Assembly (NCBI RefSeq): GCF_001653795.1
Contig: NZ_CP011514.1
Coordinates: 4,644,668 to 4,708,667 of the forward strand
Source of the DNA: Mitsuaria sp. 7
GTDB lineage: Bacteria; Pseudomonadota; Gammaproteobacteria; Burkholderiales; Burkholderiaceae_C
DNA length: 64,000 nt
Direction: 5' to 3'
In this document: positions 2,329-25,475 of the stretch, one piece after another
Numbering within the stretch: the first letter of the stretch is position 1
Layout of the letters: each line of letters begins with the position of its first letter
Notes under the pieces: model-generated
What the model was told of the DNA's origin: nothing
The model's database searches: none
The model's input: the letters and a program-made list of their open reading frames with translations, nothing else
Made by a program: the position numbers and the translations under genes

Positions 2329-2355
2329 GTTCTTGCTCCTTCGTTCACTTCAGCT

Positions 2356-3840: not shown

Positions 3841-4022
3841 GTCGTCAAACCTCTTGGCGGATGCGGCGTGTCGTCAGTGACGCAGGGCATCACGACGCGC
3901 GCGCAAGCGGTAACTCAGGTCGCCTGTTGGACCTGCCCCGTACGGTAGGGTGCAGAGGATGTGTGACGGTTCCCGCGTCCGGGGGATAGGGGTGGACGGC
4001 GGGTGGCAAGCATCAGGCGGCT
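3841..4022 (-). promoter_or_regulatory. Leader RNA between trpL and trpE (candidate attenuator)
   Basis: About 180 nt separate the Trp-rich leader ORF from trpE. Read on the minus strand it contains CAGGTC–N8–GACCTG (3916-3935), the self-complementary CCGTACGG (3938-3945), and a bulged hairpin of CGTCGTGA pairing with TCAC-T-GACG (about 3877-3903). No clear U-tract follows any of these, so a classical intrinsic attenuator is not proven. Rho-dependent or translational control is equally possible. The structures are seen; the regulatory role is inferred from the leader ORF. Confidence 0.45.
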
Positions 4023-4103
4023 TCAGGTGAAGTCGGACCAGGATCGCCAGGGCCAGGCTCCCCGGTCGTTCGACCCCTTGATGTGCTTGCGCGTGATAAA
4101 CAT
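4023..4103 (-). CDS. trpL: Tryptophan operon leader peptide
   Basis: A 26-codon ORF upstream of trpE on the same strand. It starts with ATG (4103), ends in TGA and contains three TGG codons within six codons (WPWRSW, residues 17-22). Clustered Trp codons in a short ORF about 180 nt ahead of trpE are the hallmark of ribosome-mediated trp attenuation. Trp is otherwise rare (about 1 % of codons), so three in six is unlikely by chance. No Shine-Dalgarno site is seen. A TACACT -10-like box ends 11 nt before the ATG, so the peptide may be read from an almost leaderless transcript. It lies in a stretch otherwise empty of genes. Confidence 0.7.
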   Translation of the reverse strand: MFITRKHIKGSNDRGAWPWRSWSDFT

Positions 4104-4113
4104 GGTGTTGATC

Positions 4114-4142
4114 AGTGTAGCAGGCGACGTGGGCAGGAGGAT
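4114..4142 (-). promoter_or_regulatory. Possible trp promoter
   Basis: On the minus strand TACACT (4119-4114) resembles a sigma70 -10 element and ATCCTC (4142-4137) is a poor -35, 17 bp away. Transcription would begin around 4104-4107, directly at the trpL ATG. The -35 match is weak, so this is tentative. Confidence 0.3.
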
Positions 4143-4233
4143 TCCCGGAGGCCCGGCTTCGCATGGCTGTCGGATACTTCGCATCAGAGTCGACCGTGGA
4201 GTCGGCCGATCCTTCCGGAGGGAATGGAGACAC

Positions 4234-4926
4234 ATGTCCAAGCGCAAAGTCCTGATGGCCGCGGGCGTGCTCGCCGCCGCGATGCTGACGCCGATCGCCG
4301 CGTCGGCCCAATCGTCGCCTCCGGCGGCTTCCGCGGCCGCTGCGGCCGCCACCACGGCGCCGATCGAGCTGGCCGGCGTCAAGTACGACGGCACCGCCGA
4401 GGTGGCGGGCCAGAAGCTGCAGCTCAACGGGGCGGGGATCCGCTACAAGGCGATCTTCAAGGTCTACACGGCCGGCCTGTACATGAACGCCAAGGCCACC
4501 ACGCCCGAGGCGGTGCTGGCCAACACCGGCCCGAAGCGCATGCACATCCAGATGCTGCGCGACATCGACGGCGAGGAGCTGGGCAAGCTCTTCACCAAGG
4601 GCATGGAGCAGAACGCGACGCGCGAGGAATTCGGGCGTTCGATCGTCGGCGTGCTGCGCATGTCGGAGATCTTCGTGCAGAAGAAGAAGCTCAAGACGGG
4701 CGAGAGCTTCGGCGTGGACTACATCCCCGGGACGGGCACGGTGGTCTTCGTCAACGGCCAGTTGATCCCCGGCGAGCCGATCAAGGGCGAGGACTTTTTC
4801 AACGTGCTGCTGAAGATCTGGCTGGGCAAATCGCCGGCTGACAGCGACCTGAAGGTGGCCTTGCTGGGCGGCGGCAAGGCGGCGCCGGTGACCAGCAACC
4901 GCAACGCGGCGGGCAGCAGCCGCTGA
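4234..4926 (+). CDS. Exported chalcone isomerase-like protein
   Basis: A 230-residue protein with a clear Sec signal peptide (KRKVLMAAGVLAAAMLTPIAASAQ, cut near residue 26). After an Ala-rich linker comes the chalcone-isomerase-like fold: VKYDGTAEVAGQKLQLNGAGIRYKAIFKVYTAGLYM and, later, GESFGVDYIPGTGTVVFVNGQ. Bacterial members of this family are periplasmic and of unknown substrate; flavonoid isomerase activity should not be assumed. The ATG at 4234 follows GGAGGGAATGGAGACAC. The gene is divergent from trpL-trpE and convergent with gph, and so splits the gph-trpE neighbourhood common in Burkholderiales. It is followed by a strong terminator at 4955-5000. Confidence 0.8.
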   Translation: MSKRKVLMAAGVLAAAMLTPIAASAQSSPPAASAAAAAATTAPIELAGVKYDGTAEVAGQKLQLNGAGIRYKAIFKVYTAGLYMNAKATTPEAVLANTGPKRMHIQMLRDIDGEELGKLFTKGMEQNATREEFGRSIVGVLRMSEIFVQKKKLKTGESFGVDYIPGTGTVVFVNGQLIPGEPIKGEDFFNVLLKIWLGKSPADSDLKVALLGGGKAAPVTSNRNAAGSSR

Positions 4927-4954
4927 AGCCCCCAGGGCCGCCGGAGCCGGCACC

Positions 4955-5000
4955 CGACGATGCGCCGTTCCGCGTGATGCGGACGGCGCATCGTCGTTTT
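4955..5000 (+). terminator. Intrinsic terminator
   Basis: CGACGATGCGCC pairs perfectly with GGCGCATCGTCG (12 bp) and is followed by TTTT at 4997-5000. It terminates the chalcone isomerase-like gene. The T-run runs into the gph stop codon at 5000, so the two convergent genes are packed with no spare sequence. Confidence 0.9.
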
Positions 5001-5659
5001 CAGCCCAGCAGTTCGTCGAGCCGGTCGATGTAGCGCTCCGCGGGCACCTCGCGGATGGGCTGTCCGTGGTTGTAGCCGTAGCTGACCAGCGCGATCGGGC
5101 AGCCGGCGGCATGCGCGGCGCGCGCGTCGTTGCTGGAGTCGCCGATCATCCAGGTCGTCGCCGGCGTTGAGCCCAGCGCCTCGCAGGTCTTGAGCAACGG
5201 CATCGGATCGGGCTTCTTGCGCTCGAAGTCGTCGCCGCCGAAGACACGGTCGAAGTAGCGGTCCAAACCCTTGCGCTTGAGCAGCTCACGCGCGAACGCG
5301 GCGGGCTTGTTGGTCAGGCAGGCCATCGGCAGGCCGAGCGCCTTCAGCGCATCCAGTCCTTCGATCACGCCAGGGAAAACGTCGGCGTGTTCGCCGTTGA
5401 GCACTTCATAGTGGCGCTGGTAGAGCGCCCAGGCCTGCTCGTAGTGCTGCTGGGGAGCGCCGACTTCGGCGAGCACGCTGCGGATCAGGTGCTCGCTGCC
5501 CTGACCGATCGTGTGCTCGACGAAATCGCGCTGCACGGAAGGCAGCGACATGTCGGCCATCACGCGGTTCAGCACCGCAACGAAGTCGCCCAAGGTGTCG
5601 ACGAGCGTGCCGTCGAGGTCGAGCATGAAGGCGGTGGGAGTCGGATGGAGCAAAGGCAT
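5000..5659 (-). CDS. gph: Phosphoglycolate phosphatase (HAD family)
   Basis: Dephosphorylates 2-phosphoglycolate. The 219-residue protein has all four HAD motifs: FMLDLDGTLVDT (nucleophile Asp14 and Asp16), CLTNKPAAF (motif II), the lysine in ERKKPDP (motif III) and WMIGDSSNDARAA (motif IV acids). The helical cap lies between motifs I and II. In many Burkholderiales gph sits in rpe-gph-trpE; here trpE is 1.2 kb away across an unrelated gene and rpe is 32 kb away. The ATG at 5659 is the only plausible start near the fold. Confidence 0.88.
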   Translation of the reverse strand: MPLLHPTPTAFMLDLDGTLVDTLGDFVAVLNRVMADMSLPSVQRDFVEHTIGQGSEHLIRSVLAEVGAPQQHYEQAWALYQRHYEVLNGEHADVFPGVIEGLDALKALGLPMACLTNKPAAFARELLKRKGLDRYFDRVFGGDDFERKKPDPMPLLKTCEALGSTPATTWMIGDSSNDARAAHAAGCPIALVSYGYNHGQPIREVPAERYIDRLDELLG

Positions 5660-5679
5660 GCCGTCATCCTAGCCGCGCC

Positions 5680-6630
5680 TCAGGCCTTCTTCGTCGAAGG
5701 CACCTCGCCCTGCGCTTGCACCTCGGCCGCGACCTCCGCCACCAGCGCCCTCAACCAACGGTGCGCCGGATCGTCCCGGTATCTGACGTGCCACGCGATC
5801 TCCACCGGGAAGGTTCCCAGGTCCACCGGCGACGGCAGCACCTTCAGCCGCTTGTCCGACGCCAGCTTCCGGCAGATCTGCGCCGGCAGCGTCGCGCAGT
5901 AGTCGGTCACCGCGACCACTTCCGGCACCGCCAGGAAGTGCGTCACCGACACCGCGACCTCGCGCTTCAGTCCCTGCTTCTCCAGCGCCTGGAACAGGCC
6001 CACGCGCAGACGACCCGGCGGCAGCACGTTCACGTGCTTGAGCTGCTCGTACTGCTTGCGCGTCATCTTCCGGTCCACCGTCGGATGCCCGCGTCGCACG
6101 ATGCAGGCGAGCCCGTCCTCCATCACGTGCTGCACGACGAGGTTGTCCGGCGGTTCGACCACCCGCCCCAGCACCATCGCCGTCGAGCCCGAGATCACGC
6201 CCGTCTCCGCCAGATCGGTACCGAACGGCGTGAGCCGCACCGCCATGTTCGGCGCCAGCTCCCGCAGCCGCGCGACGATGGCCGGCACCAGCACCAGCTC
6301 GACATAGCTGTTGGGCGCCAGCGTCACCAGCTGCGTCGACTTCGCCGGATCGAAGTCCCGCTGGCCGAGGATCGCCCCGTCCAGGCTGGCCAGCGCGGCG
6401 GCAATGATGGGCGCGAGTTCCTCCGCCTTCTGCGTGGGCTGCATGCCGTAGCGCTCGCGGATGAAGAGCGGATCCATCAGCATCGCCCGCAGCCGCGTCA
6501 ACGCGTTGGACAGCGCCGGCTGCGTGATGCCCAGCCGCTGCGCCGCGCGGGTCACGCTGCGCTCCTCCATCACCGCCAGGAAGACCGGCAGCAGGTTCAG
6601 GTCGTATCGCATCCAGCCATGTTGCCCCAT
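5680..6630 (-). CDS. LysR-family transcriptional regulator
   Basis: An activator/repressor of about 310-316 residues. The N-terminal winged helix-turn-helix is RYDLNLLPVFLAVMEERSVTRAAQRLGITQPALSNALTRLRAMLMDPLFIRERYGM, and the rest is the two-lobed effector-binding domain. The DLNLLPVF start and PLFIRERYG wing are typical of the NodD/SyrM-like branch. Two in-frame ATGs are possible (6630 and 6612) and neither has a good Shine-Dalgarno site; MRYDLNLLP at 6612 is equally likely. The target is unknown. It is co-directional with gph (20 bp away) and faces nothing divergent that would suggest a regulon. Confidence 0.85.
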   Translation of the reverse strand: MGQHGWMRYDLNLLPVFLAVMEERSVTRAAQRLGITQPALSNALTRLRAMLMDPLFIRERYGMQPTQKAEELAPIIAAALASLDGAILGQRDFDPAKSTQLVTLAPNSYVELVLVPAIVARLRELAPNMAVRLTPFGTDLAETGVISGSTAMVLGRVVEPPDNLVVQHVMEDGLACIVRRGHPTVDRKMTRKQYEQLKHVNVLPPGRLRVGLFQALEKQGLKREVAVSVTHFLAVPEVVAVTDYCATLPAQICRKLASDKRLKVLPSPVDLGTFPVEIAWHVRYRDDPAHRWLRALVAEVAAEVQAQGEVPSTKKA

Positions 6631-6691
6631 GCATATCTGTTGTTCAACGGATAAATCGGATGAATGCAACGGCAATGGAAACGGAAACGAC

Positions 6692-6724
6692 AAGGGCCCG
6701 ACGATCTTCCGATCGCCGGGCCCT
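6692..6724 (-). terminator. Terminator after the chemoreceptor gene
   Basis: A GC-rich hairpin, AGGGCCCG...CGGGCCCT with an inner GCGATC/GATCG stem, followed on the minus strand by TTGTCGTTT. It lies just past the stop of the chemoreceptor gene (6742) and is oriented to stop its transcript. Confidence 0.75.
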
Positions 6725-6741
6725 GCGTCATCGAGCAACGA

Positions 6742-8259
6742 TTACGAGAAGACGCCGACCGCGGTGACGAGCACCTGCGACTGCTGCTCCAGCGACTCCG
6801 CCGCGGCGGATGCCTGCTCCACCAGCGCCGCGTTCTGCTGCGTCGCCTGGTCCATCTGCGCGATGGCCTGGTTGATCTGCTCGATGCCCGCGGTCTGCTC
6901 CTGGCTGGCGCTGGAGATCTCGCCCACGATGTCGGTGACCCGCTTCACGCTGCCGACGATCTGCGACATCGTCGCGCCCGCCTGGCTCACCAGCGCACCG
7001 CCGGCCTCGACCTTCTGCACCGAGTCGCCGATCAGCGCCTTGATCTCCTTGGCCGCCGTCGCGCTGCGCTGCGCCAGCGTGCGCACTTCCGACGCCACCA
7101 CCGCGAAGCCGCGGCCCTGCTCGCCCGCACGGGCCGCCTCCACCGCCGCGTTCAGCGCCAGGATGTTGGTCTGGAACGCGATCCCGTCGATCGTGCCGAT
7201 AATGTCCACGATCTTGTTGGACGAGCTGCTGATCGACGCCATCGTCGCCACCACCTCGTCGACGACCTTGCCGCCCTGCACCGCGATCTCGGACGCGGAC
7301 ATCGCCAGCTGGTTGGCCTGACGCGCGTTGTCGGCGCTCTGCTTGACCGTAGCGGTCAGCTCTTCCATCGAGGCCGCCGTCTCTTCCAGCGCGCTCGCCT
7401 GGGACTCGGTGCGCGACGACAGGTCGCGGTTGCCGGCGGCGATCTCGCCGGCAGCGGTCGCGATCGTGTCGGTGGAACCGCGGATCTGGCCGACGGTCGT
7501 CGACAGGCTGCGCTGCATGCGGTCCATCGCGGAGAGCAGGCTGTCCGCATGCGCGTCGCGCAGGTCCACCGCCACGTTCAGGTCGCCCGCGCCGATGCGG
7601 TGGACGATGTCCGAGGCATAGGCCGGCTCACCGCCCAGCTGCCGGTAGATGCTGCCCGCCAGGCGCCAGCCCAGCACGCCCACCACCGCCATCAGCGCCA
7701 CGCCGATGGACAGCAGCATCGTGGCGCTGCGCCAGAAGGCGTTGTCGATGTCGTCGATGTAGTCGCCGAAGCCGATGATCCAGTCCCACGGCTCGAAGCG
7801 GACCACCGCGTAGAGCTTCTCGACCTCGTCCTTCGTGTTGGGCCGCGTGCCCAGCGCGATCACGGTGCCGATCTTCTTGCCCTCGAGCGCGGTGCGATAA
7901 CGCACGCCGGCCTCCTTGCCGCCCTTGGCGTCGACGATGCCGACGCGCTTCGGGTTCGGGTGCACGAGGTTGACGTCGTCGCTGTAGCCGCGGACGAAGA
8001 AGTACAGCTCGTCCTTGCGGAAGCTGCCGATGATCAGCTTGCCCTGCTTCTGCGCTTCCTCGCGGGTGATCTTGCCCGCGGTCTCCTGCTCATGCAGCTT
8101 CTCCAGCGCGGACTGCGCCAGCACCACCAGCGTCGAGAGCTGCGCGGTGCGCTCCTTCATCATCGTCTGGCGCAGCGTCGTCAAGGACACCGCCGCCAGG
8201 ACCACCATGCCGATCAGCGCGGCAAGACACAGGAAGAGGATTCGGGTTCGGAGTTTCAT
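6742..8259 (-). CDS. Methyl-accepting chemotaxis protein (single Cache sensor)
   Basis: Transmembrane chemoreceptor, 505 residues. TM1 is about residues 7-28. A periplasmic single-Cache domain follows ([29 protein letters not shown] and [19 protein letters not shown]). TM2 is about 190-210, then HAMP (about 212-265) and the signalling domain. The hairpin tip is complete: [44 protein letters not shown]. The protein ends at VGVFS without the C-terminal pentapeptide that tethers CheR in some receptors. The ATG at 8259 gives a compact N-terminus ([17 protein letters not shown]). An exact sigma28 -10 box lies 66 bp upstream. The ligand is unknown; Cache receptors of this type often bind small organic acids (family knowledge). 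Confidence 0.93.
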
Positions 8260-11683: not shown

Positions 11684-12811
11684 ATGCCCTTGGCCCATGA
11701 CGCGCGCACCAGCGGCATCGCGCTGGCACTGTCGGGCGGCGGCTTCCGGGCCGTGCTGTTCCATGTCGGCGTGCTGTGGCGGCTCAACGAGCTCGGCGTG
11801 CTGGGCAAGCTGGCGCGGATCTCCAGCGTGTCGGGCGGCTCGATCACCTCGGGTCTTCTGGCCGTGCGCTGGCCGCGGCTCGCATTCGGGGCCGACGGCC
11901 ATTCCGCGCAGTTCGAGTCCGAAGTCGTCGCGCCGCTGCGCGAGTTCTGCGCGCGCAACATCGACGTCGCCTCGGTGCTCTCCGGCGCGTTCAACCCGTT
12001 CCGCTCCGCGGGAGAAGCCGTCGCCGACGAGTACCGCAAGCGCCTGGGGCTCGATGCATCGCTGCAGTCGCTGCCGGACGACCCGCGCTTCGTGTTCAAC
12101 GCGACCAACTACGCGACCGGCGTCAGCTTCCGCTTCTCCAAGCCCTACGCAGGGGACTACCGCATCGGCCTGATCCCGAAGCCGCGCTTCGATGTGGCGA
12201 CGGCGGTCGCCTGTTCCAGCGCGTTCCCGCCGGTGCTCGCGCCCATCGAGCTGGACGTGCGCCCCGAAGACTTCACCAAGGTCGACGGCGCCGATCTCTA
12301 CGACCAGATCGACTACCGGCGCCGCCTGATGCTGGCCGACGGCGGCGTCTACGACAACCTCGGTCTGGAGACGGTCTGGGGACGCTACGAGACGGTGCTG
12401 GTCAGCGACGCCGGCAAGCCCTTCGACATCGACGCGGGCATCGGCACGATGGCGCCGCGTCAACTGATGCGCACGATGGACATCGGCCTGAACCAGGCGC
12501 TGGCGCTGCGCAAGCGCATGCTGATCGCGGCCTACGCGCGCGGCGATGCGAAGGGCGCGTTCTGGGCCATCGACACCGACATCGCCGACTACCCGGCAAC
12601 CGAAGAAGCGAAGCTTCCGGTGGCCCCGGCGCGCGTCGCCGACCTCGCGGCGATCCGCACACGGCTCGACCGCTTCAAGGAACAGGAGCAGTGCGAGCTG
12701 ATCAACTGGGGCTACGCGGTCAGCGACGCCGCGGTGAGATCGCGCTCGCCGCATGCGGCGACGCGACACCAGTCGCCGGCCTGGCCATATCCGAAGCACG
12801 CGCTGAACTGA
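11684..12811 (+). CDS. Patatin-like phospholipase
   Basis: A 375-residue acyl hydrolase of the patatin fold. The oxyanion loop is LALSGGGFRAVLFHVGVL (residues 14-31), the nucleophile motif is ISSVSGGSITSGLLA (about 47-61) and the catalytic Asp is in MLADGGVYDNLGLE (about residue 216). No signal peptide or membrane segment, so it acts in the cytoplasm. Patatins in bacteria are household lipases, secreted toxins or membrane-degrading effectors of defence systems (family knowledge). It is followed after 37 bp by a metallo-hydrolase gene, probably one transcript, and that pair runs tail-to-tail into a CHAT protease operon. The ATG at 11684 directly precedes the fold. Confidence 0.88.
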   Translation: MPLAHDARTSGIALALSGGGFRAVLFHVGVLWRLNELGVLGKLARISSVSGGSITSGLLAVRWPRLAFGADGHSAQFESEVVAPLREFCARNIDVASVLSGAFNPFRSAGEAVADEYRKRLGLDASLQSLPDDPRFVFNATNYATGVSFRFSKPYAGDYRIGLIPKPRFDVATAVACSSAFPPVLAPIELDVRPEDFTKVDGADLYDQIDYRRRLMLADGGVYDNLGLETVWGRYETVLVSDAGKPFDIDAGIGTMAPRQLMRTMDIGLNQALALRKRMLIAAYARGDAKGAFWAIDTDIADYPATEEAKLPVAPARVADLAAIRTRLDRFKEQEQCELINWGYAVSDAAVRSRSPHAATRHQSPAWPYPKHALN

Positions 12812-12848: not shown

Positions 12849-14072
12849 ATGTCTGACATCTTCCGCATCGAACTGCTGCCCGCGCGCCACGGCGACTGTC
12901 TGCTGCTCGAATACGGCGACGCCGCGCGACCGCATCGCGTGCTCATCGACGGCGGTCCGATCGGCGCGTACGGCGCGCTGTCGCAGCGACTCGCGGCGCT
13001 CCCTGCGGACCAGCGCGAGCTGGAGCTGCTCGTCATCACGCACGTCGACGGCGATCACATCGAGGGCTGCCTCAAGCTGCTGAACCACCGCGAGCTGGCC
13101 ACCTTCCGCGACATCTGGTTCAACGGCTGGCCGCATATCGCGCAGCCGCTGAAGGAGCCGCCGCCGCCACGGCCCGGTGCGACAGGCACTACGGGAGCGA
13201 TAGGAGCGATAGGAGCGGCGGGAACGATGGGAGCGATGGGCGGCCTTGCGGCCGCCGAGGCCAACGCCCAACGCAGCGCACTGCAGGGCTCGATGATCAG
13301 CGTCCGCATCGAAGACCGTCAGTGGAACGCGGCCTTCCAGGGCGCACCGATCTTCGTGCCGGCGATCGGTCCGCTGCCCGTGCGCGAGCTGCCCGGCGGC
13401 CTGCGCCTGACGCTGCTGTCGCCGACGCTGGAGAAGCTCGAGAAGCTGCGCGCCGCCTGGGATCGCGCGCTGGACCGCGCCGAGCTGGACGCCACCGATG
13501 ACGCCGCGCTGAGCGCGCGCCTCGAAGGCCGCGCGGCCTTCCGTTCCGGCGGACTGCGCCGGCGGCCGAAGCCCGAGGAGATGCTGTCCTCCGCCGCGCT
13601 GGCGCTCGGCCCGATCGACAACGCCGTGGCCAACGGCTCCAGCATCGCCGTGATCGCCGAGTACCAGGACCGGCGCATCGCGCTGCTCGGCGATGCGCAC
13701 GCGCCGACGCTGACCGCCGCGCTGCGCCGCCTGGCCGGCGCGGCAGGAGAACCGCGCCTGCGACTCGACGCGGTGAAGATGGCCCATCACGGATCGGCCG
13801 CCAACCTGAGCGAGGACCTCCTCAGTCGCATCGACTGCAAGACCTGGCTGGTCTCGACCGACGGCAGCATCTTCAACCACCCCGACGACGAGGCGATCCA
13901 CACCGTCGTGAGGAACGTGCCGGGGGTACGGCTGCTCTTCAACTACCGCTCGGTGCGAACGGCGCCGTGGGACGACCCGGCCCTTCGCGCCGCGCACGGG
14001 CACGAGGCCATCTACCCCGCCGACGCCGCGGCGGGTCTCTCGCTCGACCTCATGACAGGACGCCCGACGTGA
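12849..14072 (+). CDS. Metallo-beta-lactamase-fold hydrolase, ComEC-like, with collagen-like insert
   Basis: A 407-residue hydrolase related to the soluble ComEC/Rec2-type domain: RHGDCLLLEYG, LIDGGP, then the metal motif LLVITHVDGDHIEGC (residues 59-73). Later come IAVIAEYQDRRIALLGDAH and VKMAHHGSAANLSEDLL. Members of this group are phosphodiesterase/nuclease-like and often act with other effectors (family knowledge). At about residues 117-139 there is a G-X-Y triplet run starting GATGTTGAIGAIG, encoded by imperfect 9-bp tandem repeats (about 13190-13245). It is probably a flexible linker. The last 23 bp overlap the 3' end of the convergent CHAT gene. No signal peptide. Confidence 0.85.
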   Translation: MSDIFRIELLPARHGDCLLLEYGDAARPHRVLIDGGPIGAYGALSQRLAALPADQRELELLVITHVDGDHIEGCLKLLNHRELATFRDIWFNGWPHIAQPLKEPPPPRPGATGTTGAIGAIGAAGTMGAMGGLAAAEANAQRSALQGSMISVRIEDRQWNAAFQGAPIFVPAIGPLPVRELPGGLRLTLLSPTLEKLEKLRAAWDRALDRAELDATDDAALSARLEGRAAFRSGGLRRRPKPEEMLSSAALALGPIDNAVANGSSIAVIAEYQDRRIALLGDAHAPTLTAALRRLAGAAGEPRLRLDAVKMAHHGSAANLSEDLLSRIDCKTWLVSTDGSIFNHPDDEAIHTVVRNVPGVRLLFNYRSVRTAPWDDPALRAAHGHEAIYPADAAAGLSLDLMTGRPT

Positions 14073-15666
14073 CCAGCATCGCCGAGGCCCAGGCGTTGTC
14101 CTGCCCTTCGTAGCGGCGGTAGAGGCGACGCCGCGCGTGACCGAAGGCGGCATCCAGCGAGCGGCTGCGCTGCAGCATCCGGTAGAAGAGCAGCGCCTGC
14201 ACGGCCGCCGTCCGGTCGTTCACCCGGCAGCGATAGCCGAGCAGCGCATGGATGCCGGCCTCCGCGGCCAGCGTCGCGAAGCCCGAATTGCCGCTTTCGC
14301 AGCTGCTCAGGTAGACGAAGCGCGTGTCGCGCAGATAGCTCAGGATGTCGCCGAAGTCGACGCACTGCGGCTCCTCCTTCGGCCCGACGAACAGGAACCC
14401 GGTGCCGCCCAGCTGCCGCGCGCCGGCCGGCTGGAAGCAGGTGTGGCCGGCGAAGTGGATCAGGTCCCAGCCGCCGTCGCCCAGCGCCGCCACGAGGCTC
14501 TCCCGGCTGAGCGGGCCGTCGAGGCCGATGACGCTGACGTTGCGCTCGTGGAAGAGCGGCTGGCCGCTGCGCGGATCGGGCCGCGTCAGCAGCTTCTTCA
14601 CCCGCGCGCATTCGCGCCGCACCGCCGTCAGCGGCGCCAGCTGCAGCGCCCCGCCCTTGAGCTGGTCGTCGTACGCCGTGCCATGCGTGTCCGCGCAGAT
14701 GAGCAGCGCGCGGCGTGCCGCCACCGGACCGGCGAACAGGCTGCTCTGGCTCTCCTTCGAGGCCGCGAGCCGCCGCGACATCGACGCCGCCTTCGCCAGC
14801 CAGGGCACTTCCTGCGAGGGCTCGAACATCGCTTCGAGCAGCAACGGATAGCAGTCCTCCGACACCTCGAAGGTGATGCGGTCGGTCACGTCCTTGCCGG
14901 CATCGCCGAGCTGCTGGAAGGCCTTGAGGCGCGCGTTCTCGCGCTGCAGCCGGAAGCTCTCCTGGTCCTCGCACAGCGCGATGCGGATGCTCTTGCCGAT
15001 GCGGGAGAACTCCTTGTACCAATCGGGCTCGTGCATGTACTGGGCCTGCCAGTCGAGCCGCGCCGACTTGCTGACGGTCAACGGCCCCGCCCCCGTGAAC
15101 TGGAAATCGATGCCGTGCATCTCGAAGCGCCAGTTGTCCGCGATCGCGGACACCCGGATGTCGAGGCACGGATTCAGGGCCGCCACGCGCGCCCGTCCGC
15201 CGCGGCCCGCGAGCGCGCCATCCGCTGCGCCACGGCCTGCGCCGCCTGCATCGCCGCCGGCAAAGGCACCGTCCGCTTCAGGCGACTCCAAGCCCAGCAG
15301 TTCGAGCGCGAAGCTGCCCGCCGACGCCGGATCCGCATGCAGCGTCACGCGCAGGCGGATGCAGGCCATGTTCAGTTCCGTGGTCATCGCCGGCGCGAGC
15401 AGCATCATCGGCGTGCTGCCGAGCACGCGCACCTCGCGGCAGAACGCCAGACCGCCGTCCTCGGCGACGACCGCGCCCGCGTCGTCGGCCAGTTGGCTGC
15501 CGACGATGATGTAGTCGAAGGGCTGGCCGGTCAGCAGTTCGAGCCCGGTCTCACGGTTGGTCTCTTCCTGGATCGTGTGACGGCCCAGCTGCCGCAGCCG
15601 CTTCTTGATCTGCGGACCGAGGCTGCCCTGCTGCTGCGGGCTGAGCACGAGCAGGATGTCAGCCAT
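14050..15666 (-). CDS. CHAT-domain (caspase-like) protease with pseudo-receiver N-terminus
   Basis: A 538-residue protein. The C-terminal CHAT peptidase (about 300-538) has the catalytic His in GGWDLIHFAGHTCF and Cys in VYLSSCESGNSG. The N-terminal about 120 residues look like a response-regulator receiver fold (ILLVLSPQQQGS... PFDYIIVGSQLADDAG... TPMMLLAPA), but the phospho-acceptor Asp position is replaced (IIVGSQL). A Gly/Ala-rich linker follows (about 133-158). CHAT proteases are signal-activated executioners in bacterial conflict systems and septins/caspase analogues elsewhere (family knowledge). The ATG at 15666 overlaps the upstream PAS/GAF gene by 8 bp, so the two proteins are translationally coupled and probably act together. 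Confidence 0.85.
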   Translation of the reverse strand: MADILLVLSPQQQGSLGPQIKKRLRQLGRHTIQEETNRETGLELLTGQPFDYIIVGSQLADDAGAVVAEDGGLAFCREVRVLGSTPMMLLAPAMTTELNMACIRLRVTLHADPASAGSFALELLGLESPEADGAFAGGDAGGAGRGAADGALAGRGGRARVAALNPCLDIRVSAIADNWRFEMHGIDFQFTGAGPLTVSKSARLDWQAQYMHEPDWYKEFSRIGKSIRIALCEDQESFRLQRENARLKAFQQLGDAGKDVTDRITFEVSEDCYPLLLEAMFEPSQEVPWLAKAASMSRRLAASKESQSSLFAGPVAARRALLICADTHGTAYDDQLKGGALQLAPLTAVRRECARVKKLLTRPDPRSGQPLFHERNVSVIGLDGPLSRESLVAALGDGGWDLIHFAGHTCFQPAGARQLGGTGFLFVGPKEEPQCVDFGDILSYLRDTRFVYLSSCESGNSGFATLAAEAGIHALLGYRCRVNDRTAAVQALLFYRMLQRSRSLDAAFGHARRRLYRRYEGQDNAWASAMLVTSGVLS

Positions 15667-18190
15667 GGATCCTCCGGCGCAGGAAGCTCAGCACGAACTC
15701 GGTGTCGCCGTCCGGCAGCACGCCGGCCTTGAGCGCGCCCCCCTGGTTCTTCATCAGCTTGCCCAGCAGCGGGTTGGCCAGGCGCAGGTCCGCCTGCGCC
15801 GCCTCGGGCGCGGAGAAGCGCTCGCCGTGGCGCCGCGCGGGCGGCAACCGGCCGCGCAGCCGCAGGAAGACGAGCTCGTCGTCCGGCACCAGCGTGAGCC
15901 GCACCATCGCCGTCTCCGGCGCCGCGCGCAGCAGCACCGACAGCAGGCTCTCCACGACGATGTGCATCTGCATGTGGTCGGCTTCCACTTCCACCTTGCG
16001 CGCCGCGGTCTCGAAGACGACCTTGCGGCGCTCCGACGCGGCCAGGCTGGCGAGCAGCGCGTCGATCTCGCAGTCGAGCCGGATCGTGCTCGCGACGCGC
16101 GAGGCCACACGCGCCTCGCGGTTGTACATGGCGAGCCGCGTGAACGCGTGCTTCACGCGCCCCAGTTGCCGCAGCACGGTCTGCAGCTCCCGCCCGCGTG
16201 CCTGCTCGCGCGCCGCCTCGGAGGCGAACGCGGCTTCGAGCTGATCCTCCAGGCACGACATCGCCATGCCCAGCGGCGCCTGCGTCTCGACGGCCAGCTC
16301 GTAGGCGGTCTCCTCGAGGAACTCCAGCTGCACCGAACGCCGGATCGGCCGCAGGTCGCGCGCGATGAAGACGTGACCGCCGAGCCTGCCCGGGAAGTCG
16401 CGCCGCGTGACGAAGACGGAGATCGCGCCTCCGTCCGCCGCCGGCGCAGCGGCGTCCGCGCCCGGCACGACGGCACCGGGCGCTTCATCGACCACGGCGC
16501 TTGTGACGCTCGCAACGCCCGCGACACCCGGACGGCAGACGCGCAACTCGCCGATCCGGTCGCCCGCCTCGGTGCCGTCGAGCAACGCCGCCAGCGGCTC
16601 CGGGTTCTGGAACAGCGCCAGCAGACTGCGTCCTTCCAGCGCCTTTCGGCCAACGCCGAACAGCGCTTCCGCCGCCGGATTGACACGACGGATGCGCAGC
16701 TTCGCGTCGGTCGCGATGATCGGATCGGAGACGTTGTTGACGCACTCCGTCATCAGCGTCAGATCGCTGATGCGCTCCATCGCGCCGGCCACCTCCTGCG
16801 CGATGTCGGCGAGCTGCCGCACGTGCTCCCGCGAGAACGCGTTCACCCGCGGATCGTCGACGTTGACGATGAAGCGCACGCGCTCGCCTTCCGAGAACAC
16901 GATCGGCACGGCCAGCTCCGAACGGATGGGCTCGCCGTCCGGCGTCTTGACATACTCGGGGTCGCGCGTCACGTCGGGAATCTTCTGCGGCTGCATCGTC
17001 CGCACGACCCGGCCGAGGATGCCCTGGCAGAGGCCCTGCGCGTAGTCGCCCCAGGACACGCCCGTATCCACCGCAAGCCCGTCGTCGCCGCGCCGGGCCG
17101 AGGCCACGCGCACGATCGCATCCCGCGCGCTGTCGATCCGGAACAGCGACACGTGCTGCCAGTCGAAGATCTCGACCAGCGCATCGGACAGGCAGCGGCA
17201 GGCGCCCTGGATGTCGACGCAGCGGTTGAGCTCGCGGAACATCTTCAGCTGACGCCGGTCGCGCACGCGCTCCGCGTGGTCGAGGCTGCACAGCACCGCC
17301 TCGATCAGCGGCAGCTGGTTGAACAGCGCCAGGTGCTGCTCGTCATAGGCGCCGCGCTCGCGGCTGAGCAGCGTCATGATCGCCACGGTCCGTTCGTCCT
17401 CGCCCTCGCCGCGCGTGATGCGGCGCCACATGCTGGACTTGAGGTCCATGGCGTGCATCTGCCGGCTCATCGGCTCCTCCGCCATGTCGGACCAGGGCGG
17501 CTCGCTCATCACCGTCTCGAAGTCGTGCACGCCGCCGCACTGGCTCTCCATGAACGCGCGCTGCGCGGCGTTCAGCTCGTACCACGCGGTCGGCACGTCC
17601 TGCCGGAACGGCGGGTGGTTGAAGACGATCTCCGACTCCCAGGCGCTGTCGTCCTCGACGACGCGCGACACCAGCATGAGGTCGAAAGGAAGCTCCCGAC
17701 GCAATGCTTCCGCCACCAGCGGCAGCAGGTCCGGGCGGCCGGCGTGGCTCAGCGTGAGCGCGCGTACCTGGTCGGTCAGCACCTGGTGCTGCAGGCTGCG
17801 GAAGAAGCCGAGCGACCCGACCACGGTGCCGCGCTCGTCCATCAGCGGCAGACCCGTGACCTCGACGGCGACCTGCCGTTCCGGATCATCCTGGCAGGTC
17901 AGCGTGACGCGGTAGGCGCCGAGCTCGCGGTTGCGACGCCCGCGCGTCTCCTCGTCGAGCACGCGGCCCGCCTCGCCGGCGAAGAGCCGGTCCAGGCGCA
18001 GCTGGTCGACGTGCTCGACGCCGCTCATCGCCAGCGCCGCGGCATTGGCGTAGAGCACGTGGTTGTCGAGGTCGCGCTGGATCACGGCGATGCGCGAGCC
18101 GTCGAAGACCGCCCGCTTCATCTGCCCCAGCATCGCGGCGGCGGCCGCCGAGGTGGGCCGCAGCGCGGCGTCTTGCGCGGAGTCATCCAT
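15659..18190 (-). CDS. PAS-GAF-GAF-PAS sensor with degenerate histidine kinase core
   Basis: An 843-residue soluble sensor. By eye: PAS (about 10-130), GAF-like (about 145-290), GAF (about 310-455), PAS (about 465-590), then a histidine-kinase-derived tail (605-840). In the tail the H-box region reads AYELAVETQAPLGMAM, with Val where the phospho-acceptor His belongs. The N box reads VVESLLSVLLRAAPE, lacking the Asn. It should therefore not autophosphorylate. The start is ATG 18190, chosen because GGGAGGCGGCTC precedes it; an in-frame ATG at 18208 has no such site. It overlaps the CHAT gene by 8 bp, suggesting sensing passed on by protein contact rather than phosphotransfer. Confidence 0.82.
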   Translation of the reverse strand: MDDSAQDAALRPTSAAAAAMLGQMKRAVFDGSRIAVIQRDLDNHVLYANAAALAMSGVEHVDQLRLDRLFAGEAGRVLDEETRGRRNRELGAYRVTLTCQDDPERQVAVEVTGLPLMDERGTVVGSLGFFRSLQHQVLTDQVRALTLSHAGRPDLLPLVAEALRRELPFDLMLVSRVVEDDSAWESEIVFNHPPFRQDVPTAWYELNAAQRAFMESQCGGVHDFETVMSEPPWSDMAEEPMSRQMHAMDLKSSMWRRITRGEGEDERTVAIMTLLSRERGAYDEQHLALFNQLPLIEAVLCSLDHAERVRDRRQLKMFRELNRCVDIQGACRCLSDALVEIFDWQHVSLFRIDSARDAIVRVASARRGDDGLAVDTGVSWGDYAQGLCQGILGRVVRTMQPQKIPDVTRDPEYVKTPDGEPIRSELAVPIVFSEGERVRFIVNVDDPRVNAFSREHVRQLADIAQEVAGAMERISDLTLMTECVNNVSDPIIATDAKLRIRRVNPAAEALFGVGRKALEGRSLLALFQNPEPLAALLDGTEAGDRIGELRVCRPGVAGVASVTSAVVDEAPGAVVPGADAAAPAADGGAISVFVTRRDFPGRLGGHVFIARDLRPIRRSVQLEFLEETAYELAVETQAPLGMAMSCLEDQLEAAFASEAAREQARGRELQTVLRQLGRVKHAFTRLAMYNREARVASRVASTIRLDCEIDALLASLAASERRKVVFETAARKVEVEADHMQMHIVVESLLSVLLRAAPETAMVRLTLVPDDELVFLRLRGRLPPARRHGERFSAPEAAQADLRLANPLLGKLMKNQGGALKAGVLPDGDTEFVLSFLRRRIHG

Positions 18191-18523
18191 GAGCCGCCTC
18201 CCGGCCATCCCTGGCCATCGTTGCTTGCCGACACTCCCCTGCCAACGGCTCGAAGGCTACGCCGATTGATCCGGCGACGCGCCTGACAACCTAGGGATCC
18301 GCGATCCCGACGCGTGCCCTGCACAGGTGTCGGTGGGTGCCATGACTCATCGACGGCATCAGCCGTTGAAAGTCCACCAATCGGAGAGCGCTCCGACGCT
18401 GGCGTTGCGAATTCCACCCCCGTAGAGTGACTGCCCTCCCCGCGACATTCCGCAGTGGAGCAGGCGCCGGCAGCCAGGGCTCGGCGATGTCGAACGCAGC
18501 GTTGCCGAGGATGCATTCCGGCC
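18191..18523. other. Divergent intergenic region, 333 bp
   Basis: Lies between the divergent pseudo-kinase/CHAT operon and the EEP gene, so it must hold both promoters. No convincing -10/-35 pair, operator palindrome or RNA gene was recognised. Its base composition falls from very GC-rich to moderate toward the EEP gene. Confidence 0.5.
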
Positions 18524-19468
18524 ATGAAAAAAGACCGACCGACTGATCAACACTCGCCTGATCCGGGCATTCGCATTGCATGGTGGAACACGGGACTGTC
18601 GCCGACGCGAGTGCCCGACAGGGCAAGCCCGGACGACTTCAAGCTGGCCAGCAAGATGCTGCGCCATCTGGTGGAGGACATCCGGGCGGATGTCGTCGTC
18701 CTGGGAGAGATGGCGGAGTGCAGCGTCAAGGGCCTGCGCGAGGCCTGCCCCATCGCCCGTGCCGAATTCACCTGGCTACCCGCCTTCCACAAGGCAGGCC
18801 TGAGTCGTTTCTCGTTCTGCGTGCTCAGCAGGACGAATCGCCTCACCGTCAGTTTCAGCTCGCCCATCGTCAAAAACGACGGGGAGCGCATTTGCAAGGT
18901 GGGCCTGCACTTTCTCATCCGCCTGCACGAAGGTGGGCGACCTTTCAGCCTGATCGCGTCGCACTGGCCCAGCAGGCTCCATCTGGATCGCAGCGACAGC
19001 GCGCGAACCCACATCGCTGCCCATCTGCGGCGATGGATAGACGACCGCATCCTCTCTCTCAGGAGCGAGAACGTCATCCTGATCGGCGACTTCAACGACG
19101 AGCCCTTCGACGAGGGGCTGGAACGATATCTGTATGCGAGCCGGGACAGGAACAAGGTCTTGCGGAATCCCAACTTTCTCTACAACCCGTTCTGGCGCCA
19201 TCTCAGTTCGCTCCCACAGCGCTCGCCCAAGGAACAGGAATGCGATGCCGGCACCTACCACCACCCCGGCGCGCAGTACTCCGACTGGCATACCTTCGAT
19301 CAATTGATCGTGTCTTCGGCGCTGCTCTTCGGCCAATCCGGATGGCGTCTGAACGAAGAAAACACCCGGGTTTCAAGCGTCCCGGCGCTGGACGACGGCG
19401 AGGCATTTCCCCACGGCATCTTCGACCACCTTCCCATCATCGGACACCTGGAAAGGACTTTCCCATGA
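18524..19468 (+). CDS. Endonuclease/exonuclease/phosphatase (EEP) fold protein
   Basis: A 314-residue member of the DNase I-like EEP superfamily. Motifs in order: IRIAWWNTGLSP (Asn about residue 20), ADVVVLGEMAE (Glu), LIASHWPSR (His), VILIGDFNDEPFDEG (Asp/Asn), SDWHTFDQLIVSS and FDHLPIIGHL (terminal Asp-His). All metal and catalytic positions appear intact, so it is probably an active nuclease or phosphodiesterase. No signal peptide. Base composition is noticeably less GC-rich than neighbouring genes, suggesting transfer. Its TGA overlaps the next gene's ATG (ATGA). The start ATG at 18524 leaves WWNTG near the N-terminus; the ribosome site is weak. Confidence 0.82.
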   Translation: MKKDRPTDQHSPDPGIRIAWWNTGLSPTRVPDRASPDDFKLASKMLRHLVEDIRADVVVLGEMAECSVKGLREACPIARAEFTWLPAFHKAGLSRFSFCVLSRTNRLTVSFSSPIVKNDGERICKVGLHFLIRLHEGGRPFSLIASHWPSRLHLDRSDSARTHIAAHLRRWIDDRILSLRSENVILIGDFNDEPFDEGLERYLYASRDRNKVLRNPNFLYNPFWRHLSSLPQRSPKEQECDAGTYHHPGAQYSDWHTFDQLIVSSALLFGQSGWRLNEENTRVSSVPALDDGEAFPHGIFDHLPIIGHLERTFP

Positions 19469-19872
19469 CTGATTTCCTGCGACACATCCAGGAGGGCATA
19501 GCGACCGCAAACACCGCTGAGGCGGAACGCGCGGAGATACGCGGCATCCTCGATCAACTGAATCTCGCGGTCCGGACCGCCACCCTCGGCAATGCCGAGC
19601 TTTATGTCGGCGAATTCCGAAACAAGGAGGACGAGAAGCTCATGAGCATCTCTGATCTGCCGCAGCGGCTTGTGATCCGAAGCACCAAGAACGACAAGGA
19701 GGGCCGGATCATTGCAGGCTGGGACGTCGACATCGACGGCGGCTACTCGGTCAGCCTCGTCTACAACTTCATGCGCATTCCCTGCGGCACTGCCTATCAA
19801 CTGACGGAGGAACTGAGCGTGCTCATGGAAAGCGCCCGCGTGGGTCGAGCGATTCAACAGTTCTCTGTCTGA
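19465..19872 (+). CDS. Small protein of unknown function coupled to EEP gene
   Basis: A 135-residue soluble protein with no family I can name. Residues 1-45 are helical and acidic (HIQEGIATANTAEAERAEIRGILDQ). The middle is mixed, with LPQRLVIRSTKNDKEGRIIAGWDVDIDGG, and the end is YQLTEELSVLMESARVGRAIQQFSV. Its ATG overlaps the TGA of the EEP gene and is preceded by GGAAAGGACTTTCCC, so it is made with the nuclease. The coupling suggests a partner, antitoxin or immunity role, but nothing in the sequence proves this. A hairpin 38 bp downstream closes the two-gene unit. Composition matches the EEP gene rather than the host. Confidence 0.7.
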   Translation: MTDFLRHIQEGIATANTAEAERAEIRGILDQLNLAVRTATLGNAELYVGEFRNKEDEKLMSISDLPQRLVIRSTKNDKEGRIIAGWDVDIDGGYSVSLVYNFMRIPCGTAYQLTEELSVLMESARVGRAIQQFSV

Positions 19873-23981: not shown

Positions 23982-24105
23982 CGGAGTCCTGAGTCCCAAG
24001 GCCCGCAGGCAGTGAGCGCGGGTGGGGCCGGAATGTCGCTGGGGGTTCCCGGAGTGAAGTGCACCCCGAAGGTTGGACATCAATCCAACCGATGGGGTGT
24101 TTTTC

Positions 24106-24654
24106 ATGGCGAAGCACAGTGAGCGTCTGAAGCTCGAAGTTGTTCAGCGGTATCTATCGGGAGAGGCTGGCCACAGAGTCTTGGCCGCAGAGTACGGCGT
24201 GGCTCAGGAGCTGCTACGGCGCTGGATAGCGGCTTATCGCGTGCATGGAAAGGCGGGGCTGGAGGGCACCAGGCTTGGCAAGCGCTACAGCGCGGAGTTC
24301 AAGCTGGACTTGTTGCGCCGGGCCGAGTGCGAGAAGCTGTCCAACACCAAAGCGGCCATGCTGTTCGACGTGCGTGGGGGTGGTGCCGTGGTTGCCCTGT
24401 GGCGGCGCCAGTACGATGAGGGTGGCCCGCAAGCGCTTCATCCCAAACCCCAGGGTCGCCCTCCGAAGAACATGCCAACGCCCAAGCCCACCCCAGTCGC
24501 GCCCGAGAAGACGGAAGACAAGCGCTCCTTGGAAGAGTTGCGCGAAGAAAACGAGCAATTGCGTACGGAGGTCGCCTACCTAAAAAAATTAGAGGCCTTG
24601 GTTCGAGCCAATCGGCAAGCTGCGCTGAAAGGGCGCAAGCCGTCCTCGAGCTGA
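24106..24654 (+). CDS. IS3-family transposase OrfA
   Basis: A 182-residue DNA-binding protein with two helix-turn-helix units (SGEAGHRVLAAEYGVAQELLRRWIAAYR and CEKLSNTKAAMLFDVRGGGAVVALWRRQY). A C-terminal leucine zipper follows (RSLEELREENEQLRTEVAYLKKLEAL). The ATG at 24106 follows a poor ribosome site. The A7 tract at 24582-24588 within LKK allows -1 slippage into the OrfB frame, producing the full transposase; unslipped translation ends at 24654. Confidence 0.88.
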   Translation: MAKHSERLKLEVVQRYLSGEAGHRVLAAEYGVAQELLRRWIAAYRVHGKAGLEGTRLGKRYSAEFKLDLLRRAECEKLSNTKAAMLFDVRGGGAVVALWRRQYDEGGPQALHPKPQGRPPKNMPTPKPTPVAPEKTEDKRSLEELREENEQLRTEVAYLKKLEALVRANRQAALKGRKPSSS

Positions 24655-24665
24655 GGCCGCAGTTT

Positions 24666-25475
24666 TTGTTGCGTCGGCTTTTGCTGGCCGCATGTCTGCC
24701 GCGCAGCACGTTCTACTACCAGGCCGCGCAGCGGCAGGCCGGCGACAGGTACGCCGGCCTGAAGGCTGGCATTCGTGCTGTGTACGAGCGCCACAAGGGC
24801 CGCTATGGCTATCGCCGAATCACTGACGAACTCGGACGAAGCGGTCTGGCGGTCAACCACAAGACGGTGCAGCGCCTGATGCGGGATCTGGGCTTGAAGT
24901 CGCTGGTGCGTCCCAAGAAGTACCGTTCCTACCGCGGCGAAATGGCCACGATGCCCAACCTGCTCAACCGGCAGTTCACGGCTGAGCGGCCCAACGAGAA
25001 ATGGGTGACCGACGTGACCGAGTTCAATGTCCGAGGAGACAAGCTGTACCTGTCGCCCGTGATGGACCTGTTCAACGGAGAGATCGTGGCCTACGAGATG
25101 AACGAGCGTGCACTCTTCCCACTGGTGGGAAACATGCTCAAGAAGGCGCTATCGCGGCTCATGGCCCACGAAGCTCCGATGCTGCACTCGGACCAGGGCT
25201 GGCAGTACCAGATGCCGGCGTATCGACAGCAACTGGCCACGCGAGGCCTGACTCAGAGCATGTCCCGTCGGGGAAACTGCCTGGACAACGCGGCAATGGA
25301 GAGCTTCTTCGGAACGCTGAAATCGGAGTTCTTCCGGCTCAACAAGTTCGACAGCGTCGAGCAGCTACGACATGGGCTGCACCGCTACATCCACTACTAC
25401 AACCACCACCGCATCAAGCTCAAGCTGAAAGGCCTGAGCCCGGTGGCGTACCGAGCTCAGGCCTTGGGGGCCTAG
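24666..25475 (+). CDS. IS3-family transposase OrfB (DDE integrase)
   Basis: The catalytic part, open in its frame from the A7 slip site (24582) and most probably made as an OrfAB fusion. An internal ATG at 24666 would give a 269-residue protein. It has the HTH_21 segment (GRYGYRRITDELGRSGLAVNHKTVQRLM) and the rve core: Asp in KWVTDVTEF, Asp in MLHSDQGWQYQ and Glu in NAAMESFFGTLKSE. The spacing between the last Asp and the Glu is that of the D,D(35)E class. It looks functional. Confidence 0.9.
   Translation: MLRRLLLAACLPRSTFYYQAAQRQAGDRYAGLKAGIRAVYERHKGRYGYRRITDELGRSGLAVNHKTVQRLMRDLGLKSLVRPKKYRSYRGEMATMPNLLNRQFTAERPNEKWVTDVTEFNVRGDKLYLSPVMDLFNGEIVAYEMNERALFPLVGNMLKKALSRLMAHEAPMLHSDQGWQYQMPAYRQQLATRGLTQSMSRRGNCLDNAAMESFFGTLKSEFFRLNKFDSVEQLRHGLHRYIHYYNHHRIKLKLKGLSPVAYRAQALGA

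Follow-up and report, generated by a model that had tools for sequence, protein, structure and literature searches.

A sensor pseudokinase and a CHAT protease paired in a four-gene cassette of Mitsuaria sp. 7, a possible contact-switched conflict system

Metallo-β-lactamase-fold (MBL) nucleases of the Avs1a/LmuA kind are described in PMC12799240 as proenzymes in which two insertions lie over the active site and which are switched on by proteases (trypsin-like ones in Hachiman and AVAST, a caspase in Canu); MBL homologues are reported there to adjoin proteases of other diverse families as well. Here we analyse a 64,000-nucleotide stretch of Mitsuaria sp. 7 (contig NZ_CP011514.1, positions 4,644,668 to 4,708,667 of the forward strand; hereafter the window, to which all coordinates refer) in which an MBL gene of this kind adjoins the gene of a CHAT protease with a receiver-like N-terminus, and the protease gene is preceded by that of a PAS- and GAF-bearing sensor with a histidine-kinase-like core. 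A patatin gene completes the group. Together, the four genes of this soil bacterium resemble a switch, undescribed and probably antiviral, in which contact takes the place of phosphotransfer.

The locus resembles Canu (KaeCanABC, PMC12799240) in that the gene of a caspase-clan protease lies beside that of a probable gated MBL pro-nuclease, but CanA is described as paracaspase-like with an Ig-like fold, whereas the protease here has a receiver-like domain and a PAS/GAF pseudokinase as its partner. Its only Pfam match up to E 1 was CHAT (E 1.5e-23) rather than a paracaspase-like domain, and the word CHAT is absent from the main text of PMC12799240. AVAST type 1, Lamassu, Hachiman and DRT variants, which join an MBL nuclease to a trypsin-like protease, share the MBL homologue (Avs1a, LmuA and RTasMBL models), but the six window proteins scanned had no trypsin-like domain and no PADLOC match to the core partners of those systems; the PADLOC matches among them were the MBL protein and, at E 0.04, a protein of the EEP family. 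The MoxR-vWA ternary and EAD conflict systems (PMC7159879, PMC8195603) likewise use caspase-like proteases as switches for diverse effectors, but no MoxR or vWA match was found in the six scanned proteins, and PMC7159879 reports no histidine kinase domains among its vWA-associated effectors. With classical two-component systems the locus shares, at the level of sequence, kinase-family and receiver-family domains and the pairing of genes, but the pair in the window lacks both the phospho-His and the phospho-Asp and its output domain is a protease. No published description of a PAS/GAF pseudokinase with CHAT, or of CHAT with an MBL nuclease, appeared among the matches listed in searches of titles and the beginnings of abstracts (most subscription journals and supplements lie outside this scope), in line with an initial annotation of the window that knew of no described system with this pair.

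The sensor and protease genes lie on the minus strand in open frames. The sensor gene spans 15659-18208, or 15659-18190 if read from the second ATG. Because Met7, which corresponds to this second ATG, is invariant in 16 aligned sensors and the database copy of the window sensor (P0017) has 843 residues, the second ATG is likely to be the start (15659..18190); sensor residue numbers below count from the ATG at 18208. The CHAT gene (14050-15666, 538 residues) begins within the sensor gene. As first annotated, the two share 8 bp, ATGGCTGA (15659-15666), and the sequence GGAGGA precedes this overlap, which suggests that translation of the two genes is coupled.

Pfam recognises a PAS (residues 43-137), a GAF (334-478) and a second PAS domain (489-540) in the sensor. 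The GAF-like stretch at about 150-315 has no Pfam match of its own and aligns with the second sensor of the same genome (locus L032; loci and genomes are named by L and G numbers where they must be told apart), whose protein has two GAF stretches. The PAS-GAF-GAF-PAS layout proposed earlier thus stands for three domains by Pfam and for the first GAF by alignment. No HisKA or HATPase match was listed by Pfam in the sensor up to E 1. When the final ~250 residues of 15 sensor sequences were built into a profile and compared with PDB sequences, by contrast, 20 sequences matched at E<=1, every one of them a histidine kinase or its sensor protein by name; the top match, ZraS (E 4.4e-10), covered profile positions 23-247 of 250. 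By this profile evidence, the sensor C-terminus (residues ~620-849; 15662..16351) belongs to the histidine-kinase family, a kinship that was found only in this way. The H-box of the sensor family aligns opposite VAHEIRNPL and has no His, and the N-box aligns opposite LLSNAL and has no Asn. In the window, the phospho-acceptor His is replaced by V640 (16289-16291) and the ATP-binding Asn by V758 (15935-15937), the two valines reported by the initial annotation.

Homologues with intact phospho-sites were looked for. None of 41 sensors, drawn from the 15 loci and from 26 database proteins with some duplicates between the two sets (such as P0017 of the window sensor), has either residue: the His site holds V in 32, I in 2, G in 2, R in 2 and N, Q and A in one each, and the Asn site V in 23, G, A and Y in 5 each and F, H and T in one each. 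As a control, each of eight lineages was removed in turn and then searched with the profile of the others (database size 177,635), and the kinase-like core was recovered in all eight, most weakly in L050 (E 3.8e-18). Because the core is recovered in every left-out lineage, the assignment as a pseudokinase is firm across the sensor family. With both the His and the N-box Asn missing, such a core would be incapable of self-phosphorylation and may serve as a docking platform.

The pattern of conservation fits such a role. In 26 database orthologues, the window protein included, conservation within the sensor peaks at the junction between the PAS domain and the DHp helices and in the His-less H-box: 60% of positions are invariant in residues 598-622 (the junction), 36% in 623-655 (DHp helix 1) and 33% in 676-705 (helix 2), with helix limits drawn by eye, compared with 20% in the whole sensor and 19% in the former ATP-binding part. 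This supports a step of signalling by contact, because a non-phosphorylating kinase that still touches its receiver should show such conservation. A precedent is DivL-DivK of Caulobacter, where, according to PMC4211667, a PAS-bearing protein of histidine-kinase fold has no kinase activity and uses its docking interface to bind a receiver; DivL, however, reads the phosphorylation of its receiver, whereas the receiver-like domain in the window has no Asp and is fused to a protease.

A tblastn search with the window sensor at 1e-3 did not find the sensors of L046 and L050, and their membership rests on the profile and gene order. Weak, partial matches to the window sensor (E 9e-5 to 8e-4) occurred in six genomes (G003, G022, G027, G032, G037 and G055), and no further full-length relative came up when proteins were searched with the sensor alignment.

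The CHAT protein retains its catalytic pair, His408 (14443-14445) and Cys456 (14299-14301), within 14299..14445. Both residues, already noted as intact in the window, are present in all 30 CHATs that reach the sites; the 31st, at L034, ends with its contig before them. The dead phospho-sites together with this catalytic pair indicate, at the sequence level, that the protease has been kept and the phosphotransfer chemistry lost.

The evidence for the receiver-like domain is more graded. The first 125 residues of the CHAT protein (15292..15666) match response regulators by profile among PDB sequences (best E 4.7e-4). The profile gave 68 matches; the best 17 carry response-regulator-type names, and 10 of the best 60 are other proteins (nine IspH and one designed protein). 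In single-sequence searches of PDB, the CHAT protein had no match and the receiver-like part of L046 had one irrelevant match only. The Asp site in the window is G56 (15499-15501); judged from the alignment, there is no acidic residue after strand 1 and the Lys was not seen. In 30 of 31 CHATs, one row being gapped, the Asp site holds G in 22, E in 2, D in 2 and H, S, Q and A in one each, with the placement for L050 depending on the alignment (Q in the one counted, N in two others). The Glu at this site in L032 and L033, where the domain itself is weak, is a possible phospho-mimic. Leave-one-out searches recovered the domain in five of eight lineages, namely the window clade (best member 9e-12), L034, L045 (0.024), L046 and L048; recovery was weak for L049 (0.51) and for L032 and L033 (26 and 0.95), and L050 was not recovered. 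Because three of eight lineages are weak or unrecovered and two CHATs (L045 and L046) keep the Asp, the pseudo-receiver is firm only in the window and in part of its relatives. The earlier description of the domain as a pseudo-receiver thus holds for the window with its Gly and does not extend to L045 and L046, nor is the domain itself independently confirmed in three of the eight lineages.

The two retained Asp residues are also what speaks for a surviving phosphorelay, in which another kinase would phosphorylate the receiver; L046 additionally has acidic residues near strand 1. With Gly at the site in the window and no His in any sensor, however, we regard such a relay as very improbable. 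A different possibility is that the receiver-like domain is an independent switch responding to a nucleotide or other ligand and that the sensor acts elsewhere. Receivers working without histidine kinases have been predicted in conflict systems (PMC8195603), and the Asp site varies by lineage (G, E, H, S, Q, A, D), as might be expected under this explanation. Against it, a sensor adjoins CHAT at all 15 loci, and the four readable CHATs that lack a receiver match also lack a neighbouring sensor of this type, although the receiver profile misses some true partners. We consider an independent switch improbable, though less so than a relay, and favour signalling from sensor to CHAT by contact.

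The 15 loci were found by searching for one gene of the pair, and at each of them sensor and CHAT are adjacent on the same strand with the sensor first, which answers the call for a survey of their co-occurrence. With the pair linked throughout and neither His nor Asn in any sensor examined, the initial annotation is not refuted by the checks that it set itself. Seven belong to the cassette (the window, L028, L029, L030, L031, L035 and L036) and eight do not (L032, L033, L034, L045, L046, L048, L049 and L050). L032 is a divergent second copy of the pair in the genome of the window itself, and L033 is its counterpart in G011. Three pairs are plasmid-borne and alphaproteobacterial, in Azospirillum brasilense (L048), Rhizobium sp. 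TH2 (L049) and Sinorhizobium meliloti (L050). The two genes overlap by 8 bp in the cassette and by 4 bp outside it, except at L045, where a gap of 36 bp separates them. Named relatives carrying the locus are Roseateles noduli HZ7, R. chitinivorans HWN-4, Mitsuaria sp. PDC51 and a Rubrivivax metagenome-assembled genome, and the window sensor is 92% identical to proteins named Roseateles.

Beyond these relatives the family looks rare. A plasmid search with the CHATs of the window, L032, L046, L048, L049 and L050 gave matches in three records in total, those of L048, L049 and L050. Among 399 genomes of the order, at least three matched the sensor profile and at least three the CHAT profile, with two genomes common to both sets and the window's own genome in each; the sensor match in G173 was missed by the CHAT profile. 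Among 398 genomes of the phylum, at least two matched the sensor profile (the own genome and G640, whose locus L093 is not a member) and at least five a wider CHAT profile (the own genome and four without a sensor). Because scoring stopped at the best two or three candidates in a genome, all these counts are lower bounds. Five further CHAT-profile matches (L088-L092) had no match to the receiver or sensor profile among their called frames; L091 begins inside the CHAT gene at a contig edge, so that four of them can be judged. Their lack of a receiver match means little, because in the leave-one-out searches this profile did not recover L050 and gave weak results for L032/L033 and L049.

Some of these searches led to other arrangements. 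L093 was considered as a natural sensor/CHAT fusion and rejected, since its CHAT-profile match fell in receivers and the kinase-like part is absent. It encodes (2342-7789) one protein of 1815 residues, REC-REC-GAF-GAF-GAF-acylphosphatase. This protein matches caspase C14 weakly, the Cys site apparently being lost by eye; one GAF stretch is homologous to that of the sensors (E 2e-61), and a phage-type integrase comes after the gene. L088 (466-9103) has two CHAT-profile genes and no sensor-profile match; a response-regulator gene and a gene matching the kinase-core profile (E 1.5e-7) lie ~5-6 kb from CHAT. L089 and L091 have neighbours that look MoxR/vWA-like by eye only.

In the window, the pair is part of a larger group. 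The MBL-fold gene (12849-14072, plus strand) converges on the CHAT gene, their tails overlapping by 23 bp, and the patatin gene (11684-12811, plus strand; Pfam Patatin 1.4e-16) precedes it. Orthologues of patatin, MBL, CHAT and sensor co-occur in the same seven of 16 genomes of the genus, with identities of at least 77% for patatin, 70% (best piece) for MBL, 61% (best piece) for CHAT and 71% for the sensor, and the remaining nine genomes have none of the four. Genomes without the cassette include G011, with the divergent second type of pair, and G012 and G015, with distant MBLs; G020 has an MBL match at E 1.9e-4, and distant patatin-like matches (E above 1e-8) occur in several genomes of the genus. 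The extent of 14050..18190 first assigned to the system therefore held the sensor/CHAT pair and omitted the MBL and patatin genes.

The cassette occupies two chromosomal sites: five loci share an aldehyde-dehydrogenase side, and L035 and L036 have a different neighbourhood in common on either flank. When flanks were compared by BLAST with the window genes and by eye, the elements common to both sites were the four cassette genes. Ratios of nonsynonymous to synonymous substitution (dN/dS) relative to the window copy were 0.07-0.23 for patatin, 0.14-0.36 for MBL, 0.14-0.32 for the sensor and 0.07-0.60 for CHAT, below 1 in every pair compared. CHAT is the fastest gene in the four more distant pairs (L030, L031, L035 and L036; 0.46-0.60), which might reflect an arms race or co-evolution with a partner. 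We reject chance association or pseudogene decay because of the linkage at 15 loci and the dN/dS values of 0.07-0.60; the frames are open at all seven cassette loci, and the His-less H-box is conserved.

Two further genes were considered as core members, an EEP-family phosphatase/nuclease gene (18524-19468) and a small gene of 135 codons (19465-19872) whose product has no Pfam or NCBIfam match. They were rejected, since an EEP homologue is near only three of the seven cassette loci (the window, L028 and L029), at 58-60% identity to the window copy as against 86-95% for the four cassette genes, and there was no EEP match in the 19.5-22.5 kb compared at each of the other four. Patatin matches on contigs of G047 and G045 had no CHAT, MBL or sensor homologue among the called frames; in G045 the patatin itself was missed by gene calling. 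About 6 kb from the sensor, two genes at 24073-25475 are presumably parts of an IS3-type transposase, judged by eye.

The MBL protein points to what the protease may act on. Against PADLOC models it matched LmuA (3.6e-63), Avs1a (6.7e-42) and RTasMBL (8.9e-38), and against the NCBIfam Avs1a model it scored E 3.7e-60 with 203.7 bits, under the cut-off of 420. By these matches it is a hydrolase of the Avs1a/LmuA kind, and motifs of the type anticipated for metal sites are present. The protein also varies in two places, at residues 103-149 (13155..13295) and 191-265 (13419..13643), which are candidate gating loops, and it is a probable gated pro-nuclease. Of the MBL relatives outside the cassette, four were examined: two adjoin a clear protease (a C14 caspase at L085 and an Avs1b trypsin-STAND protein at L086), and two (L082 and L084) adjoin proteins of ~980 residues with weak protease-like matches only, which are possible proteases.

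These four loci differ in layout. At L082 (6359-11543) and L084 (5733-9778) the ~980-residue proteins, directly before MBL, have C-termini that look weakly CHAT/C25-like by eye, and this type is possibly a further MBL-protease family; at L082 a patatin lies two genes in front of MBL. L085 (5837-9565; G012, same genus) has the C14 caspase, the MBL hydrolase and a gene of 472 codons and looks like a Canu-type locus. L086 (2477-9522; G015, same genus) is an AVAST type 1 locus with Avs1b (PADLOC E 0) and the MBL gene.

The initial annotation read the pair as a two-component system turned into a signal-gated protease acting by contact, with CHAT as a plausible executioner, and this reading is supported in part. 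Because the adjoining gene encodes an Avs1a/LmuA-like MBL, a class shown elsewhere as a pro-nuclease activated by a partner protease, an initiator is the more likely role. Built on features visible in the sequence (open frames, missing phospho-sites, an intact protease pair, linkage and the cassette), the scheme we propose is as follows. The PAS-GAF-GAF-PAS sensor would detect an internal signal, and a change in its DHp helices would be passed by contact, as in DivL-DivK, to the receiver-like domain of CHAT. CHAT, with its catalytic pair intact, would then cut within the variable loops of the MBL hydrolase, the gene of which converges on its own, and the cut pro-nuclease, by homology to Avs1a/LmuA, would become an active DNase. 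Patatin may be a second, membrane-attacking effector, which is the weakest step of the scheme. The outcome would be abortive phage defence or a related suicide response. We give an even chance to the whole, a four-gene conflict cassette in which a contact-switched CHAT unlocks an MBL nuclease for such a response.

The same contact switch might also operate with the opposite sign. The sensor would then act as a guard, restraining CHAT and releasing it when a ligand is bound or lost. Tight overlap and fixed gene order would let the level of an inhibitor follow that of a toxic protease, and the sequence does not fix the sign of the switch; we hold this version to be unlikely, if the least so of the alternatives.

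Somewhat more doubtful is that the cassette regulates host stress or programmed death and is not antiviral, with CHAT cutting host proteins and the MBL and patatin genes lying alongside merely because they were transferred together. Redox state, light and small molecules are the usual inputs of PAS and GAF domains and would suit a stress regulator. The genes flanking the cassette look ordinary by eye, and no homologue of the window MBL or patatin lies beside the pair at L032, in the same genome, or at any of the other non-cassette loci (eight in all; tblastn at 1e-3, with the contig of L034 ending). In addition, neither sensor nor CHAT matched any PADLOC model up to E 0.1, and a scan of viral contigs found no relative of the system. 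Together with the uneven recovery of the receiver and the two Asp residues kept, these points weigh against a contact-switched antiviral cassette. On the other side, a stress regulator is at odds with the patchy occurrence of the cassette (seven of 16 genomes), its two sites and an MBL of the defence nuclease kind, and a conflict cassette switched by contact remains our preferred explanation.

Because no homologue lies beside the pair at the eight non-cassette loci, MBL and patatin are not general partners of the pair. Other genes stand there: S8 peptidases at L049 and L050; at L050 also a trypsin-like peptidase, a non-specific endonuclease and an alpha/beta hydrolase (under the Pfam cut-off); a possible papain-like or hydrolase protein at L045 (matches under Pfam cut-offs); and, as the third gene on at L048, a TIR protein. 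These neighbours might be interchangeable effectors, although the confinement of MBL and patatin to the cassette argues otherwise. We propose only tentatively, and with somewhat less confidence than the cassette itself, that the pair represents a new class of bacterial immune receptor, a phosphotransfer-free two-component pair that relays what its PAS and GAF domains sense to a receiver-fused CHAT through docking alone, with interchangeable effectors and a thin spread in Pseudomonadota.

Further genes accompany some of these pairs. The proteins encoded after CHAT at L045 (6346-7899) and L046 (8548-9918) are homologous to each other (40% over 309 residues) and are candidates for a third component or effector; that of L046 had no NCBIfam match. 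L032 (3602-11147) and L033 (8522-15956) have an extra CHAT protein, recognised by Pfam in L032 and by position in L033, and a protein of 444-482 residues just upstream, without a Pfam match in L032.

What emerges is a confirmed, well-conserved pair within a larger system, and the whole reads as a protease-switched conflict system with an unusual sensor. The presence of PAS and GAF domains suggests that the trigger is something else than nucleic acid sensed directly, and what a dead histidine kinase does can be tested here in a compact gene cluster whose output, DNA cleavage or death, is clear. If the proposed scheme is true, CHAT would join the proteases that may unlock gated nucleases, and the most widespread signalling fold of bacteria would be convertible to a phosphate-free switch that gates a protease in immunity or death.

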